64,000 nucleotides of DNA from Marinitoga sp. 1197 (GTDB lineage Bacteria; Thermotogota; Thermotogae; Petrotogales; Petrotogaceae), in the NCBI RefSeq assembly GCF_001021165.1, contig NZ_AZAY01000048.1:62149-126148 (forward strand). The letters run 5' to 3'. Made by a program: the position numbers and the translations under genes. How positions within the stretch are numbered: position 1 is the first letter of the stretch; each line of letters starts with the position of its first letter. A model generated the notes under the pieces. The model saw only the letters and a program-made list of their open reading frames with translations, made no database searches and had not been told where the DNA came from. Of the stretch, positions 23,869 to 53,390 are shown piece after piece.

Positions 23869-23959
23869 ATATATTCTTTTCAAAACTAAGGTATTAGCAG
23901 TTAAATAACTTCAATTAAGTAAAAAAATCATCATTCTTTTCATGTAATATATTAAAATG

Positions 23960-24156
23960 CGCTGTCTAAAAAGTCTAAAATGAAATGAAGGCTCGAAGAT
24001 TGCCCTTAAAATTATGAGTGTAAGCCGTCAAAAAAACAGGATGTTTTTTTGAGTGAAGCTTTTTCATGGATGAAAAATCGATGCGACGGCTGAGAATGAA
24101 TAATTTTAAGGATAAGCAATCAAGCTGCCTGAGTGAATTTGACTTTTTAAACAGCG
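23960..24156. repeat. Palindromic mobile-element-like repeat, copy 1
   Basis: About 197 bases bounded by inverted ends TGTCTAAAAAGTC (23963-23975) and its complement with one mismatch (24141-24153). Inside, paired segments nest toward the centre: AAGATTGCCCTTAAAATTAT against ATAATTTTAAGGATAAGCAAT, GCCGTC against GACGGC, and two small hairpins around CAAAAAAACAGG and AGCTTTTTCATGG. It closely matches the copies at 29950 and 53033. Flanks TATATTAAAAT and TATATTGAAAAT could be a decayed target duplication. A 66-codon open frame across it is not conserved in the other copies. Confidence 0.8.
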
Positions 24157-24181
24157 TATATTGAAAATTTTTCATTATTTT

Positions 24182-29181: not shown

Positions 29182-29949
29182 ATGCTATGGATTAGAAAAA
29201 TCATTCAATCATTTATCGAATTGCCGGGCCTGTTTATTACTTTAATTATTTTATTAAATTTCAGAATAAAAAAATCGAAAAAATCAAATAAAATGATTAT
29301 ATTTACTTCTATAATAATTTATCTTTTTTCTATTCAAATAACCTCAAGAATATTAGTTTATCCTTTAGAAAATGCGTTTGAGCCATATAAAGAAAACAAA
29401 GTTAATATCCCTTCTATCATTGTAATTTTAGGTGGAGGAGCTATACCTAAAACACCTATTTCACCTTCTTTAGGTGAAATGTCAGATCAAGCCTTTAAAC
29501 GAATTTTTGCAGGCTATGAATTATATAAAAAAACAAATTACCCTATTGTTATTTCTGGCGGAAAACCACCAAATACAGATTATATTCCAGAGGCTTTAGT
29601 AATGAGAGATTATCTTGTTAGATTTGGTGTTAATCCCTCAAATATTTTTATCGAACCAGATGCACAAACAACCGAGGAAAATGCAAAATATGTAAAATCT
29701 TTAATTAATAATATGAAAATAAATAGAATATTTTTAGTTACTTCTGCTATTCATTTGCCAAGATCATACAAAATTTTTAAAAACTTTATTAATAGTAATA
29801 TCGAAATAGTTCCAGTTCCTTCAAATTATCTAATAACACGGGATAAAATTACATGGATAGATTTTAAACCTGATATAGATTCTTTACGAGCAAATGCTAT
29901 GGCAATACATGAATATCTGGGATTAATATTTTTTTCTATCTTAAAATAG
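29182..29949 (+). CDS. SanA/YdcF-like DUF218 membrane protein
   Basis: 255 residues. Two N-terminal membrane segments are followed by a DUF218 domain: SIIVILGGGAI, KRIFAGYELYKKTNYPIVISGG, EALVMRDYLVRFGVNPSNIFIEPDAQTT(E)EN and FLVTSAIHLPRS. DUF218 proteins such as SanA and ElyC act in envelope integrity. An upstream TTG is in frame but the ATG at 29182 has GGAGGT seven bases before it. The last codons (ATCTTAAAATAG) are duplicated at 30147-30158, on the far side of a mobile repeat. Confidence 0.85.
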   Translation: MLWIRKIIQSFIELPGLFITLIILLNFRIKKSKKSNKMIIFTSIIIYLFSIQITSRILVYPLENAFEPYKENKVNIPSIIVILGGGAIPKTPISPSLGEMSDQAFKRIFAGYELYKKTNYPIVISGGKPPNTDYIPEALVMRDYLVRFGVNPSNIFIEPDAQTTEENAKYVKSLINNMKINRIFLVTSAIHLPRSYKIFKNFINSNIEIVPVPSNYLITRDKITWIDFKPDIDSLRANAMAIHEYLGLIFFSILK

Positions 29950-30158
29950 GCTGTCTAAAAAGTCTCAAATGAAACGAAGGCTCGAAGATTGCCCTTAAAA
30001 TTATGAATGAAAGCCGTCAAAAAAACAGGACGTTTTTTTGAGTGAAGCTTTTTCATGGATGAAAAATCTGAACGACGGCTGAGAATGAATAATTTTAAGG
30101 ATTAGCAATCAAGCTGCCTGAGTGAATTGACTTTTTAGACATCGTAATCTTAAAATAG
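29938..30158. repeat. Palindromic mobile-element-like repeat, copy 2, with 12-bp target duplication
   Basis: The element spans 29950-30146 (197 bases). Its inverted ends TGTCTAAAAAGTC (29952-29964) and GACTTTTTAGACA (30129-30141) are perfect 13-mers. The flanking 12-mer ATCTTAAAATAG occurs at 29938-29949 and again at 30147-30158, the signature of transposition. The internal palindrome matches copies 1 and 3. The insertion sits just behind the stop codon of the SanA-like gene. Confidence 0.85.
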
Positions 30159-38181: not shown

Positions 38182-39586
38182 AAATAAAAAAATTTTTGAA
38201 AATTTAATAGATTTGTTTAATTGGATTCAGATGGAATTGAATGAAACAGAACTTTTTAATTCTATTATAATATTTAATGGGGATATTTCAAAGGCAAAAA
38301 CAAGCAGTGCTGGTGATTTATTTATAGAAGTTTCTCAAAGAAATGACAAAGGAAAAACTTTTAAAATAAGTGTATTTTTATCAAGATATCATATAAAAAC
38401 ACTTTTAAATAGTCTTGGTTTGAAAAATATCAAAGAATTAGAAAATAAAAACTGGAAATTTTATGGGAAACTTTCTTTCTGGCCTACTTCAGCTTCTTTA
38501 GCCATAAGATTACAATCTCTTGTCCCCATTGGAGAATCTAAGCTGGAAAAAAGAAAAAAAGCTATTATAAATAAATTAAAAATAAATGGGTTATTAAGGG
38601 AAAGAAAAAATAAATTAGATGATTTACCTCCTACAAGAAAAATTGCTATTATTTCATCTCAAACCGCTGCTGGATATGGCGATTTTATAAAAAACATCAA
38701 TAAACTTTCTTCACCACCTTTAATTCATCTTTATTCCTCACCAATGCAGGGAGTAGAAGTCCCTACAGGTATTAATAAATCATTAGATTTAATCCTGAAT
38801 TCTAAAATAGATTATGATATTATTGTAATTATAAGAGGCGGTGGTGCTCAATCTGATTTAATGTATTTTAATGATTATGATTTAGCAGAAAAAATCGCTA
38901 TTGTAAATAATACAATACCTGTTTTAACTGGTATTGGTCATGAACAGGATATAACTATACCCGATTATGTTTCTTATATAAATTTTTCTACACCTACCGA
39001 AGTAGCGAGAGCTATCGTTAATCAAATAGAAAATTTTAATAATCAAATAAATGAAAATTTTCAAAAAATTTATTATATGGTTAATAATATATTTTCACAT
39101 GCTGAATTTTTTTCAAAAAATATACTAAACAATATAAATTCAACTATTAATCATCTGTTTGAAAAAGAAAAAAATAAAATGAACTTTTATATTAATTCAC
39201 TAACTAATTTTCAAAATATATTATCTTCATTTGAAACTTGGTTGTACAGGGAATTAAATTTTATTAATTATGTATCAGAACATATAAATAATAAAATAAA
39301 TGTTCTATATAATGAAAATATTGCTTTTGAAAAAAATATAAAAAAAGATTTTGATTTACTTGAATCTTATAATTTGAAAAAAATTAATGATTATTATGTT
39401 GAAATAACTAAAAATAGTCCTTTTAGCTCTTTTTTAAGTGGAGGAGGCGTTATTATTCAGAAATCCAAAATAATTTCAAGCGTATATGATCTGGATAAAA
39501 ATAAAGAATTAGAGATTAAACTAAAGGATGGGGAAGTTAAAAGTGATATAAAAGAAATTAAATACTATAGGGAGGATCTAAAATGA
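38168..39586 (+). CDS. xseA: Exodeoxyribonuclease VII large subunit
   Basis: 472 residues. The N-terminal OB-fold (about 1-100) has SAGDLFIEVSQRND and KNWKFYGKLSFWP. The catalytic domain has RKIAIISSQTAAGYGDFI, IRGGGAQSDLMYFNDYDLAEKIA and GIGHEQDITIPDYVS. A long coiled-coil C-terminal part that binds several XseB copies follows. The start codon is GTG at 38168, inside rsmI, with GGGAG upstream. The stop overlaps xseB by four bases. Exonuclease VII degrades single-stranded DNA and acts in repair. Confidence 0.92.
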   Translation: MKISENKKIFENLIDLFNWIQMELNETELFNSIIIFNGDISKAKTSSAGDLFIEVSQRNDKGKTFKISVFLSRYHIKTLLNSLGLKNIKELENKNWKFYGKLSFWPTSASLAIRLQSLVPIGESKLEKRKKAIINKLKINGLLRERKNKLDDLPPTRKIAIISSQTAAGYGDFIKNINKLSSPPLIHLYSSPMQGVEVPTGINKSLDLILNSKIDYDIIVIIRGGGAQSDLMYFNDYDLAEKIAIVNNTIPVLTGIGHEQDITIPDYVSYINFSTPTEVARAIVNQIENFNNQINENFQKIYYMVNNIFSHAEFFSKNILNNINSTINHLFEKEKNKMNFYINSLTNFQNILSSFETWLYRELNFINYVSEHINNKINVLYNENIAFEKNIKKDFDLLESYNLKKINDYYVEITKNSPFSSFLSGGGVIIQKSKIISSVYDLDKNKELEIKLKDGEVKSDIKEIKYYREDLK

Positions 39587-39843
39587 ATATTGATGAAATT
39601 TTGAAAATGACAAAAACAGAGTTAAAGAAAAAAACATTTAAAGAAATAACAGAAATGCTTGAATTAATTTCTCAAATATTTCAAAAAAATGGCAGTGAAT
39701 TGGATATTGAATATGCTCTGGAAATTTATAAAAAAGGATTAGATTTGTTATTATTGGCAAAAGAAAAGTTGGTAATAGCAAAAGAGGAAAAGGAAAAAAT
39801 TGATAAGAGATTCGAAGAAATTAAAATGAAATTTGAAAATTAG
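39583..39843 (+). CDS. xseB: Exodeoxyribonuclease VII small subunit
   Basis: 86 residues, helical, with the XseB pattern TFKEITEMLELISQIF, GSELDIEYALEIYKKGLDLLLLAKEKL and a charged tail. It packs on the coiled coil of XseA. GGGAGGATC precedes the ATG. From 39609 on, the gene and the next 16 bases recur at 43995-44245 with three differences, so a broken second copy of the 3' part lies about 4.4 kb downstream, on the other side of the RiPP locus. Confidence 0.93.
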   Translation: MNIDEILKMTKTELKKKTFKEITEMLELISQIFQKNGSELDIEYALEIYKKGLDLLLLAKEKLVIAKEEKEKIDKRFEEIKMKFEN

Positions 39844-39859
39844 CTTTGAAATCACCCCT
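39609..39859 (+). repeat. Left direct repeat (xseB 3' part) flanking the RiPP island
   Basis: 251 bases matching 43995-44245 at a constant offset of 4386 without gaps. The three differences are at 39786 (G/A), 39843 (G/A) and 39844 (C/T). The repeat starts 26 bases inside xseB and ends 16 bases past its stop codon. Confidence 0.95.
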
Positions 39860-39978
39860 TCGTGTAAAATTGACCGACTTCATTTTACACTTTAGATTTT
39901 TATGAATAAAAATCTAAAGGAAAAAAGGTAATTTGCGAGTTATCGCTTCTCTTACTTTTTGGACATGTTATTAGACAT
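39860..39978. other. Left edge of the island with two hairpins and repeat-like sequence
   Basis: GTGTAAAAT/ATTTTACAC (39862-39890, loop of 11) is followed by a perfect 13-bp hairpin TTTAGATTTTTAT/ATAAAAATCTAAA (39891-39918). Either could terminate xseB transcription. At 39943-39958 ATCGCTTCTCTTAC resembles part of the insertion inside repeat copy 3 (near 53135). ACTTTTTGGACAT at 39955-39967 resembles the right end of the palindromic repeats. No gene is seen. Confidence 0.5.
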
Positions 39979-40009
39979 AAAAATCAAATGAGGCTTTCGC
40001 CTCATTTGA
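39979..40009 (-). terminator. Intrinsic terminator of the RiPP operon
   Basis: On the minus strand the perfect hairpin TCAAATGAGGC-GAAA-GCCTCATTTGA has a GNRA tetraloop and is followed by TTTTT. It starts 6 bases after the stop codon of the ABC exporter gene. Confidence 0.9.
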
Positions 40010-40014
40010 AGTTT

Positions 40015-41682
40015 TTAAACTTTTATTAGATTTCCTTTTTTTATTTTATATACTTCATCACATATTTTTAATGTAGAATCACGATGTGTTATTATTACTA
40101 TTATTTTTCTTTCTTTTTTTAATTTTATCAAAATATCGTGTATTAATTTTTCATTTTTTGAATCCATTGCAGATGTAAATTCATCAAGTAATATGATTTG
40201 AGGATTAGTTATTAATGCTCTTGCTATTGCAATTAATTGTTTCTGTCCTCCAGATAAACTTATATTTTGAATTTTTTCATCTATACCTTTTTCAAATTTT
40301 GACACCATTTTTTCTATACCTGTTATTTTCAAGATTTCTTTTAATCTCTTTTCTGAAATTTCTCTACCCATTAATATGTTTTCTCTTATTGTACAATTTT
40401 TAAATAAAACTGGTTCCTGTTCAACAAAACCTATATTTCCTCTTAAAATATTATTATCTATTTCTTCAGTGTTATTCAACATAACCTTTCCATTTTTAGT
40501 CTTATATAAGCCCATTAATACATTGAACAGTGTTGTTTTCCCTGCGCCATTTTCACCTGTTATACATGTAATTTTCCCATTTATCAAATCCAAATTTATT
40601 GAATTTAAAATTTTTTCACTATCAAAACTAAACTCAATTTTTTCAAGCCTAATAGAATTTATATCTTTTTCTTCTTTTGATTCTACAACAGTTTCTTCTT
40701 TATATTTTGTTATTTCAATAACTCTTTTTATTCCTCCCCATGAACTTCTCAGCACCATATTCACTTTCATTAATAATTGCAAAGGTGTCATTAACGTTTG
40801 TATATATGTCCAGAATGCTATTAATGTTCCCAAAGTTATCTCATCTTTTATTATTAAATATCCTCCATAACTAAATACACCTACAGTTATTACTCCATTT
40901 ATAGAATTACCTATTGCCCCGGTTAATTTTATCAATTTTGCAAATTTTTTCCCTATTTTATAATGACTATCAAGATATTTATTTATCATATTCTCTATCC
41001 ATTTATATGATGACATTACCTTTATAGTTTTAATATTATTTATAATATCTATTAATACACTTGATATTTCGCCGAAGTTTTTTCTTTCAATAATAGAGAC
41101 CTTTTCTGCTTTTGTATTTACTATTTTCAAAAATAATAATGAACATAAAGTCAAGAATATTGGTACCATTGTAAGTTTCCAATTTAGATAAAACATCATA
41201 ATAATTATTCCTGATATTTGTAATACTGATAATACAAATACTGGAAATACCTGTGAAACAACAACGCCAACCATTTCAAGATCAGACATTAATTTTGAAA
41301 TCAATTCACCAGAGTTTATTTTCACAAAAAATTCATAAGGTAGTTTTGTTAATTTTATTGTTATTTCCTTTCTTATATCTCTTTTTGCTTTCAATGCATT
41401 AATTTCAAATATTACTTCTCCAAAATATGTTATTATTGATATTCCTAAAAGAGCTGAAATCATCACCAATATATATTTAAACAATATTTGAAAGTTTTTT
41501 GCTGGAATTACTGTATCTATCATATATTTTATTAATATCGGAAAGACTAATATAGACACTGCCATCAAACTTATAAAAAGTATTGCTATTATCTGTCTTT
41601 TCCAATATCTTTTAAATAAGGTAAATAAAAAATAATAAATTTCTTTTTTTTCTAATTTTTCAATGTTTCCTTTTTCTCCCAT
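40015..41682 (-). CDS. ABC exporter (membrane and ATPase domains fused), no peptidase domain
   Basis: 555 residues. Residues 1-310 hold a six-helix ABC exporter membrane domain (ILFISLMAVSILVFPILIKYMIDTVIP at the first helix). The ATPase follows with Walker A GENGAGKTT (about 375), Q-loop VEQEPVLF, signature LSGGQKQL, Walker B IILLDEFTSAMD and ITHRDS. No N-terminal C39 cysteine protease is present, so if it exports the neighbouring peptides another enzyme must remove the leader, or no cleavage occurs. The start overlaps the end of the radical SAM gene by 31 bases, so the two are translated together. Bacterial toxin, peptide or lipid export are all possible; context favours a peptide. Confidence 0.88.
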   Translation of the reverse strand: MGEKGNIEKLEKKEIYYFLFTLFKRYWKRQIIAILFISLMAVSILVFPILIKYMIDTVIPAKNFQILFKYILVMISALLGISIITYFGEVIFEINALKAKRDIRKEITIKLTKLPYEFFVKINSGELISKLMSDLEMVGVVVSQVFPVFVLSVLQISGIIIMMFYLNWKLTMVPIFLTLCSLLFLKIVNTKAEKVSIIERKNFGEISSVLIDIINNIKTIKVMSSYKWIENMINKYLDSHYKIGKKFAKLIKLTGAIGNSINGVITVGVFSYGGYLIIKDEITLGTLIAFWTYIQTLMTPLQLLMKVNMVLRSSWGGIKRVIEITKYKEETVVESKEEKDINSIRLEKIEFSFDSEKILNSINLDLINGKITCITGENGAGKTTLFNVLMGLYKTKNGKVMLNNTEEIDNNILRGNIGFVEQEPVLFKNCTIRENILMGREISEKRLKEILKITGIEKMVSKFEKGIDEKIQNISLSGGQKQLIAIARALITNPQIILLDEFTSAMDSKNEKLIHDILIKLKKERKIIVIITHRDSTLKICDEVYKIKKGNLIKV

Positions 41683-43040
41683 ATAAATAAATCACCTTCT
41701 TTATTATCAGAAAATTTTAAACATCTTGGATCGTGTTTATAAAAATTTCCATAATATTTATATGCTACCGCTCTACAACCACCATTACATATACTAAATT
41801 TATTACAATTAATACATTCCTTTATTTCTAAATTGTACCTAAATTTATTCGCTTCTTTAGAAAACCATATTTCTTTTACAGATTTTTTAAATACATTACC
41901 ATAACTAAACGCTGATTTATCTATACCTTCAACAACATCGCATAATATAACTTCACCATCAGAACACACTTGCATGGCGACTTTCGCACCGCCGCAAGTT
42001 ATATCACCAGTATATTTTTGCAGTCCATAAACAATTTTAATATTTCCTTTATATATTTTTTCATATTTCATCTTTAAAGATAAAGCATAATTTAATTCTT
42101 CTTCATTCAAAGTGTTAGAGATATTCCCTCTTCCAACAGGCAATAAAGGAACAACCCTTATTTCTTCAACTCCTAAAAATGGAAGTTTTTGAAATAAAAT
42201 TTCTAAATCATATAGATTTTTTTTTGTTAATGTAATTCTTCCACGTGTTTTTATATTAAATACATTACACCAATAAAATGCTTCTATTACTTTATTAAAT
42301 TCTTCTTTCTTTAAGCCTGTTAACTGTGACCATTTTTGATGATCCCATGTGTCTATACTAATTTGTATATTTCTTAACCCAGCTTCAACTAATTCAATAA
42401 TTTTTTCTTTTGTCAATATAGTACCTTTTGTTGAAACCTCATAATTTATTCTTTTCTCTTCTAAAAAATTAATAATTTTAGATAATCCTGGATGAGCAAT
42501 GGGATCTCCTCCAGATAATGATACATATTCAACTTTCCCCAATTCTTCAGCTTCTTCTATTATTGAAATAACTTTTTCAGTAGGTAAATATTTCTTAGAT
42601 GTATTAGGACTGAATTTACCAAAACAATAACTACAATTTAAAGGGCAATAATCTGTTAATGAAAACCCTATACTATTTATTTTTTTAGGTATAATTATAG
42701 GATTATCGATTTCTGGAATAAAAATAAATTCATTTTCGTTATTTCTGGATAATCTTTTTTCTAATTTTTGAGGTAAAAAATTTATTATATTAGCTTCTAT
42801 AAATTTATTTATCAAATTGAGTAAATCACTTTCTACTATGTCATATGGCATTTCATACAAATTAGATATTTCACATATTATCTCTTCTATATTTCTTGTT
42901 CCATCGCATAAAGATAAAAAAAATGCTTCTGTCTGACTTAAAAAAATCAAATTACTTCCACCTATATACTTCAGTATAGCTCCTTTATTTGTTTTTATTA
43001 AATCAACTTTTGGAGATAACAACAATATTTTATTTTTCAT
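41652..43040 (-). CDS. Radical SAM/SPASM peptide-modifying enzyme with N-terminal PqqD-like domain
   Basis: 462 residues in three parts. Residues about 15-95 form a PqqD-like RiPP recognition domain (GGSNLIFLSQTEAFFLSLCDGTRNIEEI), which binds leader peptides. The radical SAM core has C132-x3-C136-x2-C139 and the SLSGGDP strand. The C-terminal SPASM domain shows the classical spacing C349...G362-x4-C367 and C409-x2-C412-x5-C418-x3-C422-x17-C440, enough for two auxiliary [4Fe-4S] clusters. This layout is that of sactipeptide/ranthipeptide-type maturases that form thioether or C-C links. It lies downstream of two small Cys-containing peptide genes, 148 bases after the nearer one, and overlaps the exporter gene. 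Confidence 0.9.
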   Translation of the reverse strand: MKNKILLLSPKVDLIKTNKGAILKYIGGSNLIFLSQTEAFFLSLCDGTRNIEEIICEISNLYEMPYDIVESDLLNLINKFIEANIINFLPQKLEKRLSRNNENEFIFIPEIDNPIIIPKKINSIGFSLTDYCPLNCSYCFGKFSPNTSKKYLPTEKVISIIEEAEELGKVEYVSLSGGDPIAHPGLSKIINFLEEKRINYEVSTKGTILTKEKIIELVEAGLRNIQISIDTWDHQKWSQLTGLKKEEFNKVIEAFYWCNVFNIKTRGRITLTKKNLYDLEILFQKLPFLGVEEIRVVPLLPVGRGNISNTLNEEELNYALSLKMKYEKIYKGNIKIVYGLQKYTGDITCGGAKVAMQVCSDGEVILCDVVEGIDKSAFSYGNVFKKSVKEIWFSKEANKFRYNLEIKECINCNKFSICNGGCRAVAYKYYGNFYKHDPRCLKFSDNKEGDLFIWEKKETLKN

Positions 43041-43088
43041 TTTGTCCCCCCGTATAAATAAATTTAATTTAGTTAAATTTTATCCATG

Positions 43089-43141
43089 GGCGTCTTCCAA
43101 TTTATATTTTTATAACAAATAAAGTTTTATTGGAAGACGCC
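43089..43141 (-). other. Perfect 13-bp hairpin between precursor genes and the maturase gene
   Basis: GGCGTCTTCCAAT (43089-43101) and ATTGGAAGACGCC (43129-43141) with a 27-base AT-rich loop. The stem is far more GC-rich than its surroundings. No T run follows on the minus strand, so it is not a standard terminator; partial termination, RNA processing or transcript protection are possibilities. Confidence 0.75.
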
Positions 43142-43187
43142 ATCTGATTTTTTTAATTTCACAAAAAAACTTCTAGAACACTTATTA

Positions 43188-43286
43188 TTACCATACAATT
43201 CCACAAACAACTATAGCATTTTGGCAAAATGCACAGGCTAATATAGGATCTTGACTTTTATTAACTAGATAATACCCTTTTAACAT
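43188..43286 (-). CDS. Putative RiPP precursor peptide 1 (32 residues)
   Basis: ATG at 43286 with GGGGGGAAGG just upstream; 32 codons and TAA. The peptide starts MLKGYYLVNK and ends with C18-A-F-C21-Q-N-A-I-V-V-C28-G-I-V-W32. It matches peptide 2 at 18 of 32 positions without gaps, clustered in the first six residues and from C18 to W32, with a variable middle: the pattern expected for a conserved leader and a conserved modified core. Three cysteines are candidates for thioether formation by the adjacent radical SAM enzyme. No known precursor family is recognised. Confidence 0.8.
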   Translation of the reverse strand: MLKGYYLVNKSQDPILACAFCQNAIVVCGIVW

Positions 43287-43310
43287 TAATCCTTCCCCCC
43301 TTTCAAATTT

Positions 43311-43409
43311 TTACCAAGTTATTGCACAAACAACTATAGCTCCCTGGCAGAAATAACATTCAGATGCAATAATAGGAGTTTTTGATATCGAATAATATCC
43401 TTTTAACAA
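43311..43409 (-). CDS. Putative RiPP precursor peptide 2 (32 residues)
   Basis: TTG start at 43409 with AAAGGAGGTGG upstream at ideal spacing; 32 codons and TAA. The peptide starts MLKGYYSISK and ends with C18-Y-F-C21-Q-G-A-I-V-V-C28-A-I-T-W32. The same frame is open back to an ATG at 43514 (67 residues in all), but the ribosome site and the alignment with peptide 1 favour the short form. It is the first gene of the minus-strand RiPP operon, 24 bases before peptide 1. Confidence 0.78.
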   Translation of the reverse strand: MLKGYYSISKTPIIASECYFCQGAIVVCAITW

Positions 43410-43514
43410 TTTAATCCACCTCCTTTCATGATTTAATATAGTATCCTTCAAAATTTCTAAAATTATATTGTTTACAATACTTTCATATTGTCTCGAAAAG
43501 AGGTTTTCCTCCAT

Positions 43515-43994
43515 GGCTTATAATATAATTGAATTAAACATTTATTTAATTCGGTAAAATAAAACTATTCACTTTTATCTTAATTTTGCTTATAATAAAT
43601 ATAATATTTATATCCTTATTATTTTTTATCATATTGATTGGTCTATTATTTCTGAATTTTCAAATCATGCTGCATAAGCAGAATGATTTTATTTAATTTA
43701 TAACTTTTTCCTTAGCATTTACCAAGCAATGCTTCTGGGGTTAGTAAAGATGATTATTCTCCTGTTTCCTTAATTAAGACTATTTTTAATAATAATGTGA
43801 TTTTTTTAACTAAAACCCCCGCAAAATTTTTTGACTTATTTATTTTTATATTATATATGATTTAAAATTTTTATTTTCATTTATTCAGTTTACGATTATT
43901 TTAGCAAAAAAAAAAAAAAAAAAAAAATTACATCTGAGTAAATTTTTTATTTCTTATATTTAATAATAAGGTGTATTCTCTAAAAAATCCAAAA
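43515..43994. other. Gene-free upstream region of the RiPP operon
   Basis: No gene is seen in these 480 bases. Notable items: a perfect 8-bp inverted repeat GAATTAAA-CATTTA-TTTAATTC at 43531-43552 next to a TATATTATAAG -10-like sequence (minus strand, about 43520), which could be an operator; a hairpin AAATCATGCTGC/GCAGAATGATTT at 43662-43689; an uninterrupted run of 22 A at 43906-43927; and CTCTAAAAAATCC at 43978-43990, resembling the left end of the palindromic repeats, immediately before the xseB duplicate. Confidence 0.5.
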
Positions 43995-44229
43995 GACAAA
44001 AACAGAGTTAAAGAAAAAAACATTTAAAGAAATAACAGAAATGCTTGAATTAATTTCTCAAATATTTCAAAAAAATGGCAGTGAATTGGATATTGAATAT
44101 GCTCTGGAAATTTATAAAAAAGGATTAGATTTGTTATTATTGGCAAAAGAAAAGTTGGTAATAGCAAAAGAAGAAAAGGAAAAAATTGATAAGAGATTCG
44201 AAGAAATTAAAATGAAATTTGAAAATTAA
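43995..44229 (+). pseudogene. Truncated second copy of xseB
   Basis: Contains XseB from about residue 10 to the stop codon but lacks the start codon, ribosome site and first nine codons. An internal ATG at 44041 would give the last 62 residues; it has no ribosome site, so expression is unlikely. Confidence 0.85.
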
Positions 44230-44245
44230 ATTTGAAATCACCCCT
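43995..44245 (+). repeat. Right direct repeat flanking the RiPP island
   Basis: Matches 39609-39859 at 248 of 251 positions without gaps. Together the two copies bound a 4.1-kb segment, so recombination between them would remove the RiPP genes and leave one intact xseB. Confidence 0.95.
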
Positions 44246-44316
44246 CAATTCTAAGGAATTTTTAAGGAACGTAATATAAAATATCATTGAATAATATCAC
44301 AAAAGGGGTGTTTTTT

Positions 44317-53032: not shown

Positions 53033-53376
53033 ATTGTCTAAAAAGTCTAAAATGAAATGAAGGCTCGAAGATTGCCCTTAACACACCTACGGTGGGTTAT
53101 TGGATTAAAAATTGGATTTTAATAAAAAAAACTTTGAGCTATCGCTCTCTTACAGCGGGTATAAGATTAAAGATTTTTATTATATAATTATAAATCTTTT
53201 CCCCTTAGATTTTTTATCATAAAAAATCTAAGAGTGAATGAAAGCCGTCAAAAAAACAGGACGTTTTTTTGAGTGAAGCTTTTTCATGGATGAAAAATCG
53301 ATGCGACGGCTGAGAATGAATAATTTTAAGGATAAGCAATCAAGCTGCCTGAGTAAATTTGACTTTTTAGACATCG
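53033..53376. repeat. Palindromic mobile-element-like repeat, copy 3, with internal insertion
   Basis: Perfect inverted ends TGTCTAAAAAGTC (53035-53047) and GACTTTTTAGACA (53361-53373). The element matches copies 1 and 2 except that 149 bases (53082-53230) replace AATTAT in its left arm. The insert has a CACC-TAC-GGTG hairpin, a GAGC-TATC-GCTC motif, and an imperfect hairpin CTTAGATTTTTTAT/ATAAAAATCTAAG at its right end. Together with its flanks it fills the 462-base gene-free gap between the phosphoglucomutase and yraN genes. No clear target duplication is visible. Confidence 0.8.
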
Positions 53377-53390
53377 TATAAATTAAAATT

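Follow-up and report, generated by a model that had tools for sequence, protein, structure and literature searches.

The described systems closest to the locus reported here each share part of its layout. Subtilosin A (SboA/AlbA) has a short precursor, with a leader of eight residues (PMC12300986), an RRE-SPASM maturase and an ABC exporter. In mycofactocin biosynthesis, MftC decarboxylates the terminal Tyr of MftA, whose sequence ends in IDGXCGVY (PMC5264612). The streptococcal RaS-RiPPs (SuiA/SuiB, WGK, streptosactin) also combine a small precursor with an RRE-SPASM maturase, and control by TPR-type peptide receptors (Rgg/SHP) is known there. Within the phylum Thermotogota, the TM1316-TM1317 system of Thermotoga maritima, reportedly treated by Frock et al. 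in 2013, has a 31-residue Cys-containing precursor (MQKMPKPVVPNDYLNPGKGCGGAGLVCGWCG) encoded just before a radical-SAM gene and ABC transporters.

We analysed a window of 64,000 nucleotides, the whole stretch of DNA under study, from a genome (G000) that is one of seven in its genus (G000-G006). Two short paralogous genes, B and A, precede genes for a maturase and an ABC exporter there. As in radical-SAM RiPP systems generally, a small encoded precursor thus adjoins a radical-SAM maturase with a precursor-recognition domain. A and B are very probably tandem precursors of such a RiPP, which the maturase would crosslink and the exporter would secrete. The preliminary description had proposed two paralogous precursors of this kind, and the linkage of the motif to the maturase, the selection on the genes and the anatomy of the operon bear this out.

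Two precursor genes in an inserted operon

The two 32-residue frames lie on the minus strand between 43188 and 43409, as had been described. Precursor B (43311-43409; LLKGYYSISKTPIIASECYFCQGAIVVCAITW) starts with TTG, its first residue being read as Met, and has an ortholog in G001; precursor A (43188-43286; MLKGYYLVNKSQDPILACAFCQNAIVVCGIVW) starts with ATG and has orthologs in G001 and G006. Each is preceded by the strong ribosome site claimed for it, at 43416-43426 for B (AAAGGAGGTGG) and at 43291-43304 for A (AAAGGGGGGAAGG), both on the minus strand, with Shine-Dalgarno-to-start arrangements of AAAGGAGGTGGATTAAA-TTG and AAAGGGGGGAAGGATTA-ATG, respectively. The program-made ORF of B extends back to an ATG at 43514 (67 residues). 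This longer reading is unlikely, because the G001 ortholog has ATG at the same place as the TTG and a stop codon shortly upstream. The TTG start is further supported by the other members of the family, all of which start at the equivalent position, each behind a Shine-Dalgarno sequence of its own.

Aligned without gaps, A and B agree at 18 of 32 positions (56% identity), the same positions as listed previously. When the short ORFs of the window were compared in pairs over their last 30 residues (24310 pairs), the A/B pair (16/30, ungapped) was surpassed only by copies within DNA repeats, and the best unrelated pair reached 11/30. This control and profile matches in seven further genomes place the resemblance beyond chance. 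Between G000 and G001, the B orthologs differ by 15.5 synonymous changes in 22.7 sites and 4.5 nonsynonymous changes in 70.3 sites (dN 0.07, dS 1.8, dN/dS 0.04), showing that B is under purifying selection. The ratio was 0.31 for the A orthologs and 0.58 for A versus B within the window. In the latter comparison no nonsynonymous change fell in residues 2-6, about 16 fell in residues 7-17 and about 8 in residues 18-32, which supports the proposed selection on the leader and core ends and the proposed freedom of the middle to vary. By these sequence measures, A and B are real genes. The shortness of the frames and the failure of protein family models to match either of them would fit chance or untranslated frames, but such an origin has a negligible probability: the frames are kept in seven other genomes and have ribosome sites, and the dN/dS pattern, with its purifying selection, already refutes it in practice.

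Identity between G000 and G001 is 75% for A-A and 29/32 for B-B, and the gene order B, A, maturase, exporter is identical in both genomes. Since A matches A and B matches B in the same order, the duplication is older than the G000-G001 split.

The operon lies in a 4.1-kb block (39860-43990) bracketed by two copies, 98% identical, of a 255-bp direct repeat on the plus strand. The left copy (39605-39859) forms the end of an intact xseB (39583-39843), and the right copy (43991-44245) is a truncated xseB. Elsewhere in the genus, four genomes have the gene found at window position 44287 immediately after xseB, with guaB next, which marks the operon as a fairly recent insertion here. No mobility gene was found inside the 4.1-kb insert.

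Other repeats were also seen. An interspersed, apparently intergenic repeat of ~210 bp occurs in the window in copies 92-94% identical (23948-24158, 29937-30146, and 53035-53081 with 53235-53390), the third being split by about 150 bp. Near-identical short frames in the same genome (MSKKSNSLRQLDCLSLKLFILS...; L117:1798-1986, L117:6718-6897 and L199:1437-1640) represent either a further interspersed repeat or one that is coding.

A peptide family with a C-terminal Trp

A profile search recovered this peptide from seven more genomes (E 1e-22 to 7e-6), and ten distinct peptides, eight besides A and B, fall under one profile. Within the genus, G001 has two precursors and G005 and G006 have one each, that of G006 standing on another contig than its maturase, which stops interrupt. 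G003 retains only an exporter, itself interrupted, and scraps of the maturase, and G002 and G004 have neither. Outside the genus, G031 and G035 each have two precursors of the family, which is also present in G085 and G054.

In the ten-member alignment, ML.G[YF]Y is followed by a variable 10-14 residues and then by the core C21-x-x-[AT]-I-[VF]-[VI]-C28-[GA]-[VI]-x-W32, or, as a wider consensus, C21-x-x-[AT]-I-x-[VI]-C28-[GA]-x-x-W. M1, L2, G4, Y6, C21, I25, C28 and W32 are invariant, and W32 is always the last residue. The core CxFCQxAIVVCxIxW proposed earlier holds for A and B but is too narrow for the family: C18 and F20 are restricted to the genus and G031/G035 and are absent from G085 and G054. 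The family core thus shrinks to CxxAIxVC(G)xxW, with C18 and F20 dispensable.

Relatives that carry the maturase without the motif had been named as grounds for rejecting the proposal. Instead, the motif accompanies every full-length ortholog, each of which is preceded by one or two family peptides. For maturase orthologs of at least ~40% identity, the motif lies 66-158 nt upstream in every genome but G006. A more remote cluster in G030 combines a maturase 33% identical to that of the window with an MFS exporter and may include a distant precursor, which ends in ...NIEEPWCHTAIVIW; a possible single-cysteine variant (...PWCHTAIVIW) lies near this maturase.

Genome contigs gave no match when scanned with the single maturase sequence; scanned with the maturase alignment, they gave an uncultured Petrotoga MAG and generic radical-SAM proteins unaccompanied by the peptide, and no others. 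Radical-SAM proteins were only remote in viral contigs and in plasmids (in the latter about 27% identity or less among the matches listed). No family members outside Thermotogota were found in the collections searched, and as far as these reach the peptides appear to form an unnamed radical-SAM RiPP family confined to this phylum. It is a testable thermophile family with a minimal set of parts, namely a 32-residue substrate, one maturase and one exporter. This would be convenient for enzymology, with thermostable enzymes and short synthetic peptides usable.

TM1316 was considered as a member of the same family and rejected. The two systems share the phylum and a faint common CxxAxxVCG, but the TM1316-TM1317 maturase is PapB/SCIFF-like and not orthologous to that of the window. 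A and B are not matched by NF033413 (cut-off 35 bits), on which TM1316 itself scores 84.5 bits, and TM1316 reaches 3.4 bits on the A/B family profile, a score equalled by 31 of 5000 shuffles.

Maturase, exporter and possible chemistry

The maturase (41652-43040, minus strand; 462 residues) consists of an N-terminal PqqD-like RRE, a radical SAM core and a SPASM domain, and Pfam PqqD, Radical_SAM and SPASM all match above cut-off. The radical SAM CxxxCxxC is C132/C136/C139, the SPASM cysteines are at 349, 367, 409, 412, 418, 422 and 440, and the cluster cysteines are invariant in an alignment of seven maturases. In an AlphaFold model of moderate quality (pLDDT 70), the three strands and three helices at the N-terminus are what an RRE would be expected to show. 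The closest solved folds are the RiPP maturases SuiB (best), SkfB and CteB, then PqqE, which is also the best solved relative by sequence. The ABC exporter half-transporter (40015-41682, minus strand) has membrane and ATPase parts, and its first 31 bp overlap the end of the maturase gene; Pfam found no C39 peptidase domain in it. An ABC exporter adjoins the maturase in all clusters except the remote one of G030. Since no protease gene was found in the cluster, a leader-cleavage step is unsupported.

A hairpin with a 13-bp stem (GGCGTCTTCCAAT ... ATTGGAAGACGCC; z -4.2) lies in the gap between precursors and maturase (43089-43141, minus strand). In G000, G001, G005, G085 and G054 a strong hairpin separates the last precursor from the maturase, and in G006 one follows the precursor (z -2.3 to -7.5); the hairpin sequences are unrelated among genomes save those of G001 and G006, which are alike. 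The corresponding gap of G031 has no hairpin (z -0.5). The element is probably an mRNA 3'-end stabiliser or an attenuator favouring precursor over maturase, which would let short precursor mRNA accumulate over the maturase message. A bidirectional terminator-like hairpin lies at the operon end (39984-40009, minus strand). A sigma-70 and terminator scan gave promoter matches near the shuffled number, which were not used.

We infer that the maturase acts on A and B and that export and cleavage follow. The N-terminal RRE would probably recognise and hold the precursors by their invariant start, ML[K]GYY, and the radical-SAM/SPASM domain would then put radical crosslinks into the C-terminal core CxxAIxVC(G)xxW before secretion by the ABC exporter. 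The product would be an exported, crosslinked peptide of 15-32 residues, most likely directed against neighbours or serving as a signal. The maturase genes of G006, G054 and G085 are frameshifted or broken, so the RiPP system is not essential. Frameshifted maturases in three relatives lie at L074:5973-9067, L075:8258-9652 and L036:338-1714; in G085 the shift falls at a T run, and maturase and exporter then form one open frame. These frameshifts may reflect decay, sequencing error or a programmed shift.

Against curated profiles, the window maturase scored best with PqqE (120 bits, cut-off 381), the tungsten-cofactor-maturase and WgkB, and was below all cut-offs. It is closer to PqqE, MftC (84 against 265) and WgkB than to the sactisynthases, which lie far below their cut-offs (AlbA 48 against 850, StsB 63 against 625); SkfB was seen only for relatives. 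Since the maturase reaches no curated family, the chemistry is not assignable from sequence. We give a thioether with a Cys donor close to an even chance, consider crosslinking or decarboxylation of the C-terminal Trp rather improbable, and regard any other chemistry as unlikely.

The Cys residues suggest thioethers. In a sactipeptide or ranthipeptide proper, the sulfur of every core Cys would be bonded to a carbon, backbone or side-chain, of some other residue in the core. The result would be a hairpin bacteriocin for the ABC transporter to export, on the pattern of subtilosin A. This is a serious possibility, though somewhat short of probable. A short, hydrophobic core in which two or three cysteines are conserved fits it, as do the small size and short leader, which recall subtilosin; the leader had been called atypical for its length, a claim that the eight-residue subtilosin leader contradicts. 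The fused RRE and SPASM and the ABC exporter likewise resemble the AlbA, SkfB and CteB systems (PMC8326336). However, AlbA, StsB and PapB scores fall far below cut-off and below the PqqE, WgkB and MftC profiles, which leaves a filing under sactipeptides unproven. For SCIFF/PapB, the score is 63 bits against 340, and the precursors have two or three Cys, not six. The subtilosin core is unrelated in sequence, and the window cluster is without AlbE/F-type proteases or cyclisation genes. The absence of C18 from G085 and G054 also counts against this reading, as members with two cysteines, and the possible variant of G030 with only one, are hard to square with a fixed thioether pattern.

The invariant C-terminal Trp sharpens the crosslink question. 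A mycofactocin- or PQQ-like reaction at this residue, with decarboxylation, a C-C bond to the neighbouring Val/Ile or both, would yield a small aromatic product. The CG[VI]xW end recalls the end of MftA, PqqE is the best curated profile as well as the best solved sequence relative, and MftC ranks high for the maturases of G085 and G031. Even so, such chemistry is rather doubtful. Trp replaces Tyr, the precursors end in CGxxW or CAxTW without IDGxCGVY, and the mycofactocin and PQQ precursor models match neither A nor B. The RRE is fused, the clusters are without mftB, mftD-F or PQQ-type partner genes, and the linked gene encodes an exporter rather than redox partners. MftC and PqqE both stay well under their cut-offs.

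TPR-like proteins and secreted-type peptides in relatives

Before the precursor of G005 and that of G006 stands a gene for a secreted-type 43-residue peptide (MKKITILIIIGIVIFSTIIFAGDNDDEYATDSTNPQIQIEFSE in G005), divergent from the gene of a ~530-residue TPR-like protein. Of 103 Thermotogota genomes, 59 contain members of this protein's family, with up to 18 matches each, some of which are fragments of a single gene. TPR_12 (Pfam) was found in the G030 member only, the TPR label of the others resting on homology. Pfam shows no domain beyond TPR and PDB no sequence relative, so that these searches found no output domain (HTH or Rap-type). Viral contigs held no relatives of the TPR protein.

We scanned all collected loci blindly for short frames with a ribosome site, a basic start, a hydrophobic stretch and a polar tail. 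This gave 18 peptide forms, essentially all at loci drawn in by or adjoining the TPR-like family; the window yielded none, nor did any locus contributed by the maturase scans of genome and viral contigs. Among the 35 relatives of the peptide listed for the genus, 29 are divergent to a TPR-family gene, mostly at 313-362 bp. The propeptides have 40-68 residues, and the pairs often stand beside RiPP or ABC-export cassettes. One TPR-like gene (L034:9646-11229, plus strand) goes with a small peptide gene at L022:1730-1860 (minus strand); further loci are L035:5872-7896, L119:6031-8059, L120, L121, L122, L123 and, in T. maritima (G090, identified by its NF033413 match), L115. There a divergent TPR-family gene and a small frame for a secreted-type peptide come immediately before TM1316.

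A TPR receptor, so labelled by homology except in G030, thus adjoins a secreted propeptide, the arrangement of RRNPP systems. The pair resembles these and the Rgg/SHP control of streptococcal RiPPs, and its recurrence throughout Thermotogota makes it a candidate quorum-sensing system. Besides phylum and cores, the streptococcal systems differ in that the Thermotogota proteins have no detectable Rgg or HTH domain. If it is a signalling system, Thermotogota would gain peptide quorum sensing comparable to that of Bacillota, and it would help to account for the timing of expression at loci such as TM1315-TM1319. That the RiPP combines an undescribed maturation on CxxAIxVCGxxW and its terminal Trp with control, in several lineages, by phylum-wide, unrecognised peptide quorum sensing is a tentative proposal.

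The mature peptides themselves might chiefly be signals rather than bacteriocins, the paralogs being partly different signals. T. maritima TM1316 preparations are said not to have inhibited the strains tested, and the operon is linked to the TPR protein and the 43-residue peptide in G005 and G006. A role as quorum signals has been put forward for the SCIFF ranthipeptides, in work cited in PMC8326336. Nevertheless, we consider this role unlikely, as the secreted 43-residue peptide makes a better candidate for the signal at these loci and neither the window copy nor G001 has a linked regulator. The window operon is without the TPR/propeptide pair, of which G000 has members elsewhere, and elements shared by the propeptide-gene promoters (TTGATAAATA.CGGATTTTTATTTT and TTGAAA..CATGTTAGAA) did not occur upstream of the window precursors beyond chance.

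Two further cassettes were seen in the genus. At L119:8311-8669, G001 has two more putative precursors (MKIVNDAKNESLKCFIVCSGACVVICSLDTITPLLDAMGVASYANAENVSL and a paralog) with a TPR/propeptide pair and radical-SAM-like genes. G000 has a second RiPP-like cassette at L199:9709-13014, with a Cys-rich peptide, two radical-SAM-like genes and ABC exporter genes, and a secreted-peptide gene lies nearby.
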